From Collinsella sp. An7 (GTDB lineage Bacteria; Actinomycetota; Coriobacteriia; Coriobacteriales; Coriobacteriaceae): a stretch of 64,000 bases of DNA. The notes beneath the pieces were generated by a model. It did no database searches. It saw nothing but the letters and a program-made list of their open reading frames with translations, and was not told the origin of the DNA. The position numbers and the translations under genes were made by a program. Numbering within the stretch: position 1 is the stretch's first letter; every line of letters starts with the position of its first letter. Where the stretch lies: contig NZ_NFHP01000004.1 in the NCBI RefSeq assembly GCF_002159335.1, forward strand, positions 124,001 through 188,000. The letters run 5' to 3'. Of this stretch, positions 16,175 to 63,116 are shown piece by piece.

Positions 16175-18366
16175 TGAACGATCGGACTCAGACCTCGGCA
16201 GGCGCTGAGCCAGCGGCGCCCGCGACGCCTGCCCCGGCGCCCGGCGGCGCCCCGCTCGCCGGCAGCCCGCGCACGTCCGACATGCCCGACGACATCCGCC
16301 AGCACCTCTGCTCCTCTGCGGTGGCGCGGCCGGACGGCAAGGGAGACGGCACCACCCGCGAGGAGCGCCTCGCGCTCAAGGAGCTCGCCTTCTCGGGCAG
16401 GCCCTTCGGCCCGGGCAGCCGCACCGAGAAGGAGGGTCGCACCATGACCGGCGCCGAGGCGATCATCGCCTCGCTCGAGGCCGAGGGCGTCGACACGATC
16501 TTTGGCTACCCCGGCGGTCAGGCCATCAAGATCTACGACGCGCTCTACGACTCCACCAAGATCCGCCACATCCTCGCTCGTCACGAGCAGGCCGCGGTGC
16601 ACGAGGCTGACGGCTACGCGCGCGCCACGGGCAAGGTGGGCGTGGTGATCGTGACGAGCGGCCCGGGCGCCACCAACACCGTCACGGGCATTGCCACGGC
16701 CTACATGGACTCCGTGCCGCTCGTGGTGATTACCGGGCAGGTAACGCGCGGGGTCATCGGCACCGACGCCTTCCAGGAGGCCGATATCGTGGGCATCACC
16801 ATGCCCGTGGTGAAGCACAGCTTTTTGCTGCAGTCCAACGACGACCTCACCCGCACCTTCCGCGAGGCGTTCTACATCGCGAGCACGGGGCGCCCGGGTC
16901 CGGTCCTCATCGACATCCCGTCCGACCTCGCCGGTGAGCAGATGGTCTTCCACTATCCCGACCAGGTCGATATCCCGAGCTACCGACCCACGTACCGCGG
17001 CAACGCCAAGCAGGTCAAGCAGGCGGTCGAGCTCATCCGCGCGAGCGAGCGGCCGCTCATCATGGCCGGCGGCGGCGTGGTGACGAGCCACGCCTGCGCC
17101 GAGGTGGTGGAGCTTGCCGAGAAGATGCAGATCCCCGTGGTCACGACACTCATCGGCAAGGCGGCTGTGCCCTGCTCCAACCGGCTCAACCTGGGGCCCG
17201 TCGGCATGCACGGCTCCAAATACGCAAACCTCGCCGTGACCGAGGCCGACCTCATCATCGCCATCGGGGCGCGCTTCTCCGACCGCGTGACGGGCAAGCT
17301 CAGCGAGTTTGCCCCGCACGCCAAGATTATCCACATCGACATCGACCCAGCCGAGATCGGCAAGGTCCGCGACCCGCAGGTTCCCATCGTGGGCGACGCA
17401 CGCAACGTGGTGAGTGCCATCAACGAACGGCTCGACCGCCTGGGCGCCGAGCCCGTCGACGCCCCGTGGGTCGAGACGGTTTTTGAATGGCGCGACCGCT
17501 GGCCGTTCTACATCGAGGACTTTGCCGACTATCCCGATCGCATCGCCCCCGAGCAGGTGCTCGAGGCGCTTTCGGCCAAGCTCGACCCGCACGCGAGCGT
17601 GGTGACCACCGAGGTGGGCCAGCATCAGATGTGGGCCCACCAGCACATCCACCGCGAGGAGTCTCGGACGTTCATCTCCTCGGGCGGCCTGGGGACCATG
17701 GGCTTTGGCTTTCCCGCGGCGATCGGCGCCAAGATCGGCCGGCCGGGCGCGCAGGTGGTCTGCATCGCGGGCGACGGATCCATCCAGATGAACATCCAGG
17801 AGATGGCCACGGCCATCGGTAACGGCGTGGCCGTGAAGGTGCTCCTCATCGATAACAACGCGCTCGGCATGGTGCACCAGTGGCAGCGGCTCTTCTACCA
17901 CGAGCGCTACAGCTGCACCGAGTTCACGGCCAACCCCGACTTCGTCAAGCTCGCCGAGGCCTACGGTTGGGGCGCCGAGCGGATCAGCCATCCCGACGAG
18001 GTGGACGCAGCGCTCGACCGTATGCTCGCCGCCGAGGGCCCCTACCTTCTCGACGTGGTGATCCCCACGGCCCAGACCGTCTACCCGATGGTCGCGCCCG
18101 GTGCGGCGATCGACGACATCATCGGCGCCATCGACGTGACGCTCGGCGGTGTCCGCGTTACCGAGAAGGGCATGAGCCCGGCGGGCGAGACGGCGGGCAC
18201 GGTGGCGGAGCCGCTGCCGCTCACCGCTGCAACCGACGGCGCCCTGCGCACCGGCGGGGCCGTCCGCATGGGCGCGGGCCCCATGGGCGCCGAGGCGCGC
18301 CCGCAGCCGATGGGGGAGACGGCCGCCGGGGAAGATGGGGCCGCGAAGGGAGGCGACGCCCGATGA
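16171..18366 (+). CDS. ilvB: Acetolactate synthase large subunit with N- and C-terminal extensions
   Basis: TPP-dependent enzyme of branched-chain amino acid synthesis. The catalytic Glu lies in [18 protein letters not shown], and the TPP/Mg motif is [12 protein letters not shown]...LIDNN. The core begins at [15 protein letters not shown] (residue 92). Residues 1-91 are a Pro/Ala/Gly-rich extension with normal coding bias whose ATG overlaps the ilvD stop. The core ATG at 16444 has its own near-perfect site, AAGGAGGGTCGCACC, so a 640-residue form may also or solely be made. After the normal C-terminus (about residue 655) comes another low-complexity tail. The stop overlaps ilvN as ATGA. Confidence 0.93.
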
Positions 18367-18836
18367 AGTACATCCTCTCGGTGCTCGTAGAGAACAAGCC
18401 CGGCGTGCTCAGCCGCGTGACGGGGCTCATCAGCCGTCGCGGGTTCAACATCGATTCGCTCGCCGTGGCCCCCACCGAGGACGTCTCGATGAGCCGCATG
18501 ACGATCATCGTCGACGCCGACGAGGTGGCCTATGAGCAGCTCACCAAGCAGCTCCATAAGCTCGTCTCGGTCTACAAGATCTCGGACATGACCCACGAGG
18601 ACGCCATCGAGCGCGAGCTCGTGCTCTTTAAGGTCATGGCCCCGCCCGATCGCCGGCACGAGATTATCGAGATCGCCAACATCTTCCGCGCCAAGGTGGT
18701 CGACGTGGGCAAGAACACCCTCACCGTGGAGGCGACGGGTACCCAGAGCAAGCTCGATGCCATGGAAGGGCTCTTCCGTGGCTACGGCATCAGGCAGCTC
18801 ACGAGGACGGGCAAGATCGCCATGTCGCGCAGCTGA
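18363..18836 (+). CDS. ilvN: Acetolactate synthase small regulatory subunit
   Basis: 157 residues. The N-terminal ACT domain (ILSVLVENKPGVLSRVTGLISRRGFNIDSLAVAPTE region, about 3-75) binds valine for feedback control in this family, and a C-terminal ACT-like domain follows (about 80-157). The ATG overlaps the ilvB stop as ATGA, so the two subunits are coupled. A structured hairpin begins within 20 bases of the stop. Confidence 0.95.
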   Translation: MKYILSVLVENKPGVLSRVTGLISRRGFNIDSLAVAPTEDVSMSRMTIIVDADEVAYEQLTKQLHKLVSVYKISDMTHEDAIERELVLFKVMAPPDRRHEIIEIANIFRAKVVDVGKNTLTVEATGTQSKLDAMEGLFRGYGIRQLTRTGKIAMSRS

Positions 18837-18841
18837 CCCGG

Positions 18842-18942
18842 CCTTCCCGGGCGCCGCACCTTGGCCCTCAATCGTCGGTCGGCGCCCGTAAGGCGCCCTC
18901 CCTCCTCTTTTGGGCCAATCTGCGGCACCTGGGGAGTCCGGG
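18842..18942 (+). ncRNA. Structured 3' element, copy 1 (behind ilvN)
   Basis: The outer stem pairs 18842-18852 with 18927-18936, and the main stem pairs 18853-18867 with 18912-18926 except for a 2x2 internal loop (CC opposite UC). The enclosed part reads TCAATCGTCGGT then an inner hairpin GGCGCC-CGTAA-GGCGCC, then CTCCCTCCTC. The inner sequence is shared with copies behind asnS (30710) and ftsZ (63016), while the stem sequence differs with compensating changes. The function is unknown. Confidence 0.6.
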
Positions 18943-18952
18943 CGGGACAAAA

Positions 18953-18983
18953 GGGTCAGTTGGGGACGTGTTCCATCTGACCC
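18953..18983. repeat. Short GGGGACGTGTTCC palindrome, copy A
   Basis: GGGTCAG at 18953-18959 pairs with CTGACCC at 18977-18983 around TTGGGGACGTGTTCCAT. This is the same core as at 13874-13906. The remaining DNA up to ilvC (18984-19180) shows no gene; it probably holds the ilvC promoter and leader. Confidence 0.65.
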
Positions 18984-19180
18984 ATTCGCGCCCGACCTGA
19001 CATGGTTCTTGGGGACTTTGTCAGACAGTTCGGTTACCAAGGGCCGCAGCTGGTGCCCCAGATTGCCCTGAAAGCGGAAGGGCATGCGCCTTTTGGCGAT
19101 GCCCGACGCTTGAAGGGCAAGGTGGGGTACCAGATGTGGCCGGTAAACATAGCAGTAAGGTCAACAGTTAGGAGAAGAAA

Positions 19181-29163: not shown

Positions 29164-29282
29164 GTTGCGGCGCGGCTCTGCCGTTCGCGGCGGGCGGGGC
29201 CGGCTGCTATCATGGTGAACGGTTGAATCTGCCTGCGCCGGGGCGTGGCGCGCCCCTGTGCCGGGAACACGAAAGGAACCGC

Positions 29283-30686
<1,404 letters not shown>

Positions 30687-30705
30687 GCTCCTCTCAACCA
30701 GAGCG

Positions 30706-30806
30706 GCCCCTCTGGGCACCGTTCCTTCGTCCTCAATCGTCGGTCGCCGCCCTAAGGCGTGCTCCCTCCTCTTTCGGACGAATCTACGGCACTTGGAGGG
30801 ACCGTT
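30706..30806 (+). ncRNA. Structured 3' element, copy 2 (behind asnS)
   Basis: The main stem pairs 30719-30732 (CCGTTCCTTCGTCC) with 30776-30789 (GGACGAATCTACGG) around a 3x3 internal loop, and an outer stem of about 9 pairs continues on both sides. The enclosed sequence TCAATCGTCGGTCGCCGCCC-TAAGGCG-TGCTCCCTCCTC is nearly identical to that behind ilvN. The stem bases differ from the other copies yet still pair. Confidence 0.6.
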
Positions 30807-30826: not shown

Positions 30827-30877
30827 GGCCTCCCCGGCGCTGTGCCCTTGTGGGCGGCGCCGGGGAGGCCTGTTTTC
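30827..30877 (+). terminator. asnS terminator
   Basis: A perfect 14-bp stem (30827-30840 with 30857-30870) has a 16-base loop and TGTTTTCT after it. It lies between asnS and the convergent GH31 gene and may serve both directions. Confidence 0.82.
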
Positions 30878-30941
30878 TCGGTCGGGTGCGGCTGCGTTCG
30901 CAACCGGGCGTGGTCGCGTTAGCTAACGGGTGCGGTCGCGC

Positions 30942-63006: not shown

Positions 63007-63116
63007 GACGCTGCGCGGGCCTCAGGCACGTCATCTTGCCGTTCACTCGTGGGTCGCCGCCGTAAGGCGTGCTCCCTCTTAGTTCACGGCAACCTGGCGT
63101 GCCTGGGGCCCGCTCG
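63007..63116 (+). ncRNA. Structured 3' element, copy 3 (behind ftsZ)
   Basis: A long stem of 26 positions, broken only by a 2x2 internal loop, pairs GGGCCTCAGGCACG...TTGCCGT (63017-63044) with ACGGCAA...CGTGCCTGGGGCCC (63084-63112). The enclosed part TCACTCGTGGGTCGCCGCCG-TAAGGCG-TGCTCCCTCTTA matches copies 1 and 2 while the stem sequence differs. The remaining gap to pgeF (63117-63414) shows no gene. Confidence 0.62.

Follow-up and report, generated by a model that had tools for sequence, protein, structure and literature searches.

A multi-copy palindromic element, probably a REP-like repeat, behind housekeeping genes of Collinsella sp. An7 and related genomes

Copies of the element in the window

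The DNA that was analysed, referred to here as the window, comprises 64,000 nucleotides of the Collinsella sp. An7 genome (contig NZ_NFHP01000004.1, positions 124,001 to 188,000). Its forward strand carries ilvN, encoding the acetolactate synthase small subunit (18363..18836; NCBIfam TIGR00119/NF008864), and 1 nt past the stop codon of this gene (TGA, 18834-18836) begins a long palindromic element (copy 1; 18838..18939, forward strand) that matched a covariance model with 111.9 bits. In the structure derived from the alignment of copies, its outer arms occupy 18840-18867 and 18912-18939, the two conserved strands 18868-18880 (TCAATCGTCGGTC) and 18899-18911, and the inner hairpin 18881-18898, all on the forward strand. 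Further forward-strand matches to the model were located 16 nt behind the stop codon of asnS (copy 2; 30703..30803) and 32 nt behind that of ftsZ (copy 3; 63013..63113). The initial annotation had recognised these three copies, all in sense orientation; the identities of the three genes were checked, and the stems that it quoted do pair in the sequence as stated. Its distance of 20-40 bases from the stop codons has to be corrected to 1, 16 and 32 nt when counted to the outer stem, and its "family of three" proved far too small. The window holds a fourth copy, inverted and on the reverse strand (19042..19143), in the space that separates copy 1 from the following gene, which was read as ilvC. 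Copy 4 had been left out of model building and matched with 81.7 bits (E 3e-17). A hairpin followed by a T-run at about 30831-30878, 3' of copy 2, looks like an intrinsic terminator. The asnS gene itself (29223-30686) has its closest sequences, among the matches listed, in the Oscillospiraceae (about 75% identity; Clostridia-type), which suggests possible acquisition by horizontal transfer; closer relatives may exist beyond those matches.

Distribution among genomes

About 55 copies were found in this genome by covariance search at E below 0.01, a pattern search having first given 10; the weakest of these matches may be generic long hairpins. The search of relatives with a covariance model, which had been proposed in the initial annotation, found copies in most genomes of the family, and numbers ranged from 0 to 57 per genome within one genus and family. 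In a sample of 199 genomes spread evenly over the order, 44 genomes with matches belonged to the window's own family; nearly all high counts lay there, the rest of the matching genomes having 1-3 weak matches. Most sampled genomes of the family carry the element and almost none do elsewhere in the order. The loci analysed below are the best-scoring matches from about 17 genomes.

No match to Rfam was obtained in the window at the gathering score, and at E values up to 1 four copy-bearing loci gave only chance-level matches of microRNA type over the element. Viral contigs, phages and plasmids were searched and gave no convincing copies, the one match being 47 nt long and inside a gene. The literature searched held no description of the repeat; it may be listed in a survey of human microbiomes that reports 250 palindromic candidate RNAs, 20 of them not terminator-like (PMC8040213).

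Fold and covariation

Twelve copies aligned with MAFFT, with no structural guidance, gave a common fold of 31 pairs, 21 of which showed changes on both sides. The covariance model has 102 positions and the same number of pairs, 31. For a larger alignment, 120 matches from this and related genomes were aligned to the model, yielding 118 distinct rows. Standard pairs filled 95.4% of its pair cells compared with 72.4% in shuffles, and sliding the partners by 1-3 columns reduced the paired cells to 32-44%. Two-sided changes occupied 807 cells compared with 256 in shuffles (none of 500 shuffles reached the observed value), and the covariation score was 0.58, against 0.07-0.09 for the slid structures. 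The 118-row alignment was fitted to the model and leans towards the structure, which does not apply to the unfitted MAFFT alignment of 12 copies. Between copies behind the same gene in different genomes, 469 both-sided changes that kept pairing were counted against 159 one-sided changes that broke it. In the outer stem the sequence is nearly free while pairing is kept; conservation is much higher in the inner hairpin and in the two core strands, TCAATCGTCGGTC and TCCCTCCTCTTTC. The compensatory change around a conserved core that had been proposed from three copies is thus real and very strong in both alignments, it was not lost when the alignment was enlarged, and it is no chance pattern.

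Placement behind genes

The stop codon of a same-strand gene adjoins the 5' edge of the element in 85 of 117 copies and the mirror arrangement occurs in 4, gene ends being taken from a codon model trained on the window rather than from annotation. The distance from stop to element is mostly 0-17 nt, and most of the remaining copies are either the second of a tandem pair or inverted just upstream of a start codon. Equal occurrence in antisense orientation or inside genes, which the initial annotation had named as the mark of a mobile DNA repeat, was therefore not seen. By NCBIfam, the genes upstream include purF-like, pncB, nadE, prfB, gyrB, recR, pheS and map, and further nrdJ, ppaC-like, hisF, rnd, relA/spoT and dnaN. 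Copies recur in nineteen gene clusters, and nearly all of these clusters span at least two genomes; genes with copies in several genomes include gyrB, pheS, dnaN, nrdJ, asnS and relA/spoT. Copies behind the same gene in different genera were slightly more similar than random pairs (0.674 compared with 0.624; permutation p 1e-4), and on these sequences some element sites may be old or may have been exchanged between species.

A fixed insertion motif at the stop codon, such as TAG followed by G, was considered and rejected, since the codons involved were TAG in 39 cases, TAA in 30 and TGA in 16, and the offset of the element from the stop codon varies. The flanks of the 117 copies showed weak conservation, and neither a shared target motif nor a target duplication was found at the ends. 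Two individual arrangements were also recorded. Two paralogous genes of this genome (loci L038 and L045), glutamine synthetase-like and ending in VPTYDDILFYV, each have the element 1 nt after the stop. At locus L044 (G000:C3:5730-5830) a copy lies directly behind a partial second copy within one long called open frame; this may be a cluster in decay, or the gene call may be wrong.

Filled and element-free sites

Orthologous junctions were compared between this genome (G000), genomes of the same genus (G001-G007) and other relatives. At gyrB-gyrA, the junction is bare in G001-G007 (TAA(A)GGAG..GTG), with the stop touching the ribosome-binding site, and G008 has a short, element-free spacer; in G000, G009, G010, G015, G018 and G019 the element begins 0-3 nt past the stop, and in G017 and G021 a different hairpin, designated family B, is found instead. 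The ilvN-ilvC slot holds the main element in G000, the family B hairpin in nine relatives (G001-G005, G007, G008, G010 and G017) and neither family in G006, G012 and G015. Filled and element-free sites, as expected of a mobile DNA element, occur in related genomes at both junctions. In G016 the same ilvN-ilvC slot (L208) contains a long inverted repeat around GCATGTAAATTTACCCCAGCGACTTTTTTACAT, seemingly a further repeat family.

Tandem and inverted arrangements occur among the copies. One copy (L039) is chimeric, with a left arm nearest to one subfamily and a right arm nearest to a second. The outer stem of this copy is largely unpaired (6 of 11 pairs), a state that deletion between tandem copies would be expected to leave.

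Neighbouring hairpin families

A short REP hairpin, GGGTCAGTTGGGGACGTGTTCCATCTGACCC, lies on the forward strand of the window at 18953..18983 and is unrelated in sequence to the main element. It is an example of the short REP TTGGGGACGTGTTCC, which has about 86 near-copies of its core in this genome and was recorded at locus L097 too. This REP often adjoins the main element and occupies the same intergenic slots, lying 1-12 nt past stop codons in about 10 of 30 examined. It differs from the main element in being short and in its link to a RAYT gene through a GGGGACG motif. Because the short REP also lies 1-12 nt after stops, placement behind stop codons is not unique to the main element.

Family B has the core CAGTCCT..CTCGC..GGCTCGTGCGGAACT within well-paired outer stems that are unrelated in sequence. 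Its sites include the orthologous ilvN sites of congeners (L236-L243; for example L236:1501-1617), G000:C13:198052-198168 and other places, and matches were found in 27 of 40 relatives, often 6-28 nt past stops. Since its strand energies are symmetric (antisense lower in 29 of 53) and its placement is looser (27 sense, 3 mirror, 23 neither), no claim about the strand is made for this family.

Comparison of the two strands

Read inward from the outer stem on the mRNA strand, the core runs U.C, C.U, A-U, A-U, U.C, C.U, G-C, U.C, C.U, G-C, G-C and ends, at core positions 12-13, in either U.C, C.U or two Watson-Crick pairs. The pyrimidine internal loop described in the initial annotation is the complement of tandem G.A pairs: on the strand complementary to the mRNA, the core "loops" become G.A/A.G tandems interspersed with Watson-Crick pairs. 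The UC/CU arrangement on the mRNA strand is present at core positions 1-2, 5-6 and 8-9 in 74-81 of 82 copies. Positions 12-13 change together (UC/CU in 34 copies, GC/CG in 33, with few intermediates). In the outer CA/CA loop, alignment columns 16/100 form a standard pair on the antisense strand in 113 of 116 copies and on the sense strand in 23, and columns 17/99 in 109 of 113 and in 29, respectively. In the shuffling analysis both pairs of columns were conserved without covariation, so that they are evidence from identity and not from covariation. Folding energy was lower on the antisense strand in 115 of 117 copies with RNA parameters (mean -68.1 kcal/mol antisense, -54.9 kcal/mol sense) and in 112 of 117 with DNA parameters.

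If the RNA were the selected molecule, G.U intermediates should exceed A.C intermediates in the stems. With the two problem columns left out, the stem mismatches comprised 86 G.U and 74 A.C (26 and 19 in the 50 best copies), whereas terminator hairpins with a T-run behind them in the same sequences gave 21 G.U and 6 A.C; background hairpins lacking a T-run gave 119 and 141. This balance fits a structure kept in DNA, or a mutational process, better than one kept in RNA, as indirect evidence set against a small terminator control.

These observations bear first on a cis-acting 3'-UTR RNA, in which the mRNA would fold just past the stop and its pyrimidine-rich core would be read by a protein or an RNase to set the stability or translation of housekeeping mRNAs. 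The sense placement mostly 0-17 nt past stops, the copies inside operons (ilvN-ilvC, gyrB-gyrA), which must be transcribed, the recurrence of the same genes in several genomes and the excess of pair-keeping over pair-breaking changes between same-gene copies all speak for such an RNA. Against it stand the lack of a G.U excess, the weaker folding of the mRNA strand in nearly every copy, the conserved C.A/A.C and U.C/C.U mismatches, which are best read as pairs of the other strand, and the absence of the element behind the same genes in congeners. On this balance a 3'-UTR RNA is considered unlikely. The strong preference for one orientation (85:4) and the recurrence of genes across genera (19 clusters) would also be consistent with a selected mRNA function. 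The earlier proposal of selection on RNA structure, perhaps a 3'-UTR motif, therefore stands in its covariation and its sense placement behind stops and does not stand in naming the mRNA 3' UTR as the selected molecule, given the better antisense fold, the missing G.U preference and the patchy copies. As pairing is better on the strand opposite the mRNA, reading the element simply as a motif of the mRNA tail is probably wrong.

Template switching, a process known to correct quasi-palindromes, could perfect the palindromes of an inert repeat, which would then show apparent covariation with no structural selection on either strand. The symmetry of G.U and A.C intermediates is in keeping with this process as well. 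It would, however, erase the core mismatches too, yet nearly all copies keep them; core positions 12-13 switch as a pair, and the core sequence is conserved far above the stems. Template switching as the whole explanation is accordingly judged improbable.

Search for a mobilising gene

The only Y1 transposase gene found in this genome is a RAYT gene (best match NF047646, slightly below the cut-off), and it has the GGGGACG motif of the short REP on either side, in inverted orientation, rather than the main element. Among 30 Y1/RAYT loci, none had a copy of the element within about 1.5 kb, and G017 and G021 contain 18-22 copies and no Y1 gene. RAYT was on these grounds (0 of 30 loci with the element, and the genome's own RAYT flanked by the motif of another REP) rejected as the cognate mobiliser.

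The antisense folding together with the sense placement behind stops resembles integron attC sites, and a recombination site of this kind would be a bottom-strand hairpin that lies behind genes and relies on a tyrosine integrase for its movement. The flank table of the 117 copies shows no evident GTTRRRY/RYYYAAC boxes (R' and R'') at the ends, no integron integrase (TIGR02249) scored above the curated cut-off in any of 25 genomes, and the copies are scattered behind housekeeping genes rather than arrayed. An attC-like site is very improbable, and for integrons proper it is mostly refuted. A gene for an antisense small RNA, with transcription entering from the distal end of the element, would account for the antisense strand being the better folder, but is barely credible, as conservation declines beyond the hairpin, the copies share no promoter-like block there, and the antisense strand has no G.U preference either.

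Interpretation

The element is probably a REP-like palindrome, present in many copies within one bacterial family, that is spread and maintained as a DNA hairpin and transcribed behind stop codons. Spread would probably be brought about by a putative enzyme acting on the DNA hairpin. The folding DNA strand would be the complement of the mRNA, on which the core could form one uninterrupted helix that includes as many as four tandem G.A/A.G pairs and a tandem U.G/G.U pair, and the putative enzyme would recognise this helix. Because copies sit inside operons, the elements are expected to be transcribed, presenting a stable hairpin 0-17 nt past the stop; as such a hairpin, they should act like the E. 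coli REPs, protecting mRNA 3' ends and, within 15 nt of the stop, interfering with the terminating ribosome. That neither a linked transposase nor a fixed target motif or target duplication was found counts against the REP-like reading. A bolder version is put forward only tentatively: the element would belong to a novel type of mobile DNA hairpin, served by a putative enzyme that is specific to it, recognises the bottom-strand tandem G.A helix and inserts the hairpin behind housekeeping genes, at their stop codons and in a single orientation. Many mRNAs would thereby gain a regulatory hairpin simultaneously.

Copies lie directly behind gyrB, dnaN, ftsZ, pheS, asnS, relA/spoT, prfB and other core genes. 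If the element is mobile, it would represent a route for placing regulatory hairpins at gene ends, with an unusual insertion preference; if it is a selected mRNA element instead, it would define a large uncatalogued 3'-UTR regulon. As a general caution, very strong covariation can originate in the strand opposite the transcript; counting G.U against A.C intermediates offers an inexpensive check.

Relation to known repeats

Integron attC sites are imperfect bottom-strand hairpins placed in sense right after genes, variable in sequence and conserved in structure; the element differs from them in having neither R boxes nor an integron integrase and in being dispersed behind housekeeping genes. 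The bcr1, ERIC and other MITE-like repeats are dispersed, transcribed, imperfect palindromes of about 100-150 nt with compensatory changes. They are likened to the element by general description, and the Rfam, phage and plasmid searches revealed no sequence relation to it.

REPs are palindromes of 20-40 bp with stems of 5-13 bp and GTAG or CGTC tags, the GTAG types being associated with RAYT genes (PMC3733652, PMC2817692). In E. coli, 260 of 496 lie within 15 nt of a stop codon, and they are proposed to act in translation by stalling ribosomes (PMC12306157). Like REPs, the element is an extragenic palindrome repeated tens of times, usually on the downstream side of genes and in many cases no more than 15 nt from a stop codon; inverted or clustered copies and patchiness between species are further features in common (PMC3733652, PMC12306157, PMC2817692). 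It differs from them in its length of about 100-130 nt and its 31 or more pairs, in having no GTAG or CGTC tetranucleotide at either end (flank composition of 117 copies), in its strong single orientation to the upstream gene and in its conserved tandem G.A core; in contrast to the GTAG types, none of the 30 Y1/RAYT loci is flanked by two inverted copies of it. In the broad sense of high-copy extragenic palindromes found mainly downstream of genes, the element belongs with the REPs, and it is best read as REP-like but unusually long (about 100-130 nt), absent from Rfam and not seen flanking a RAYT gene.
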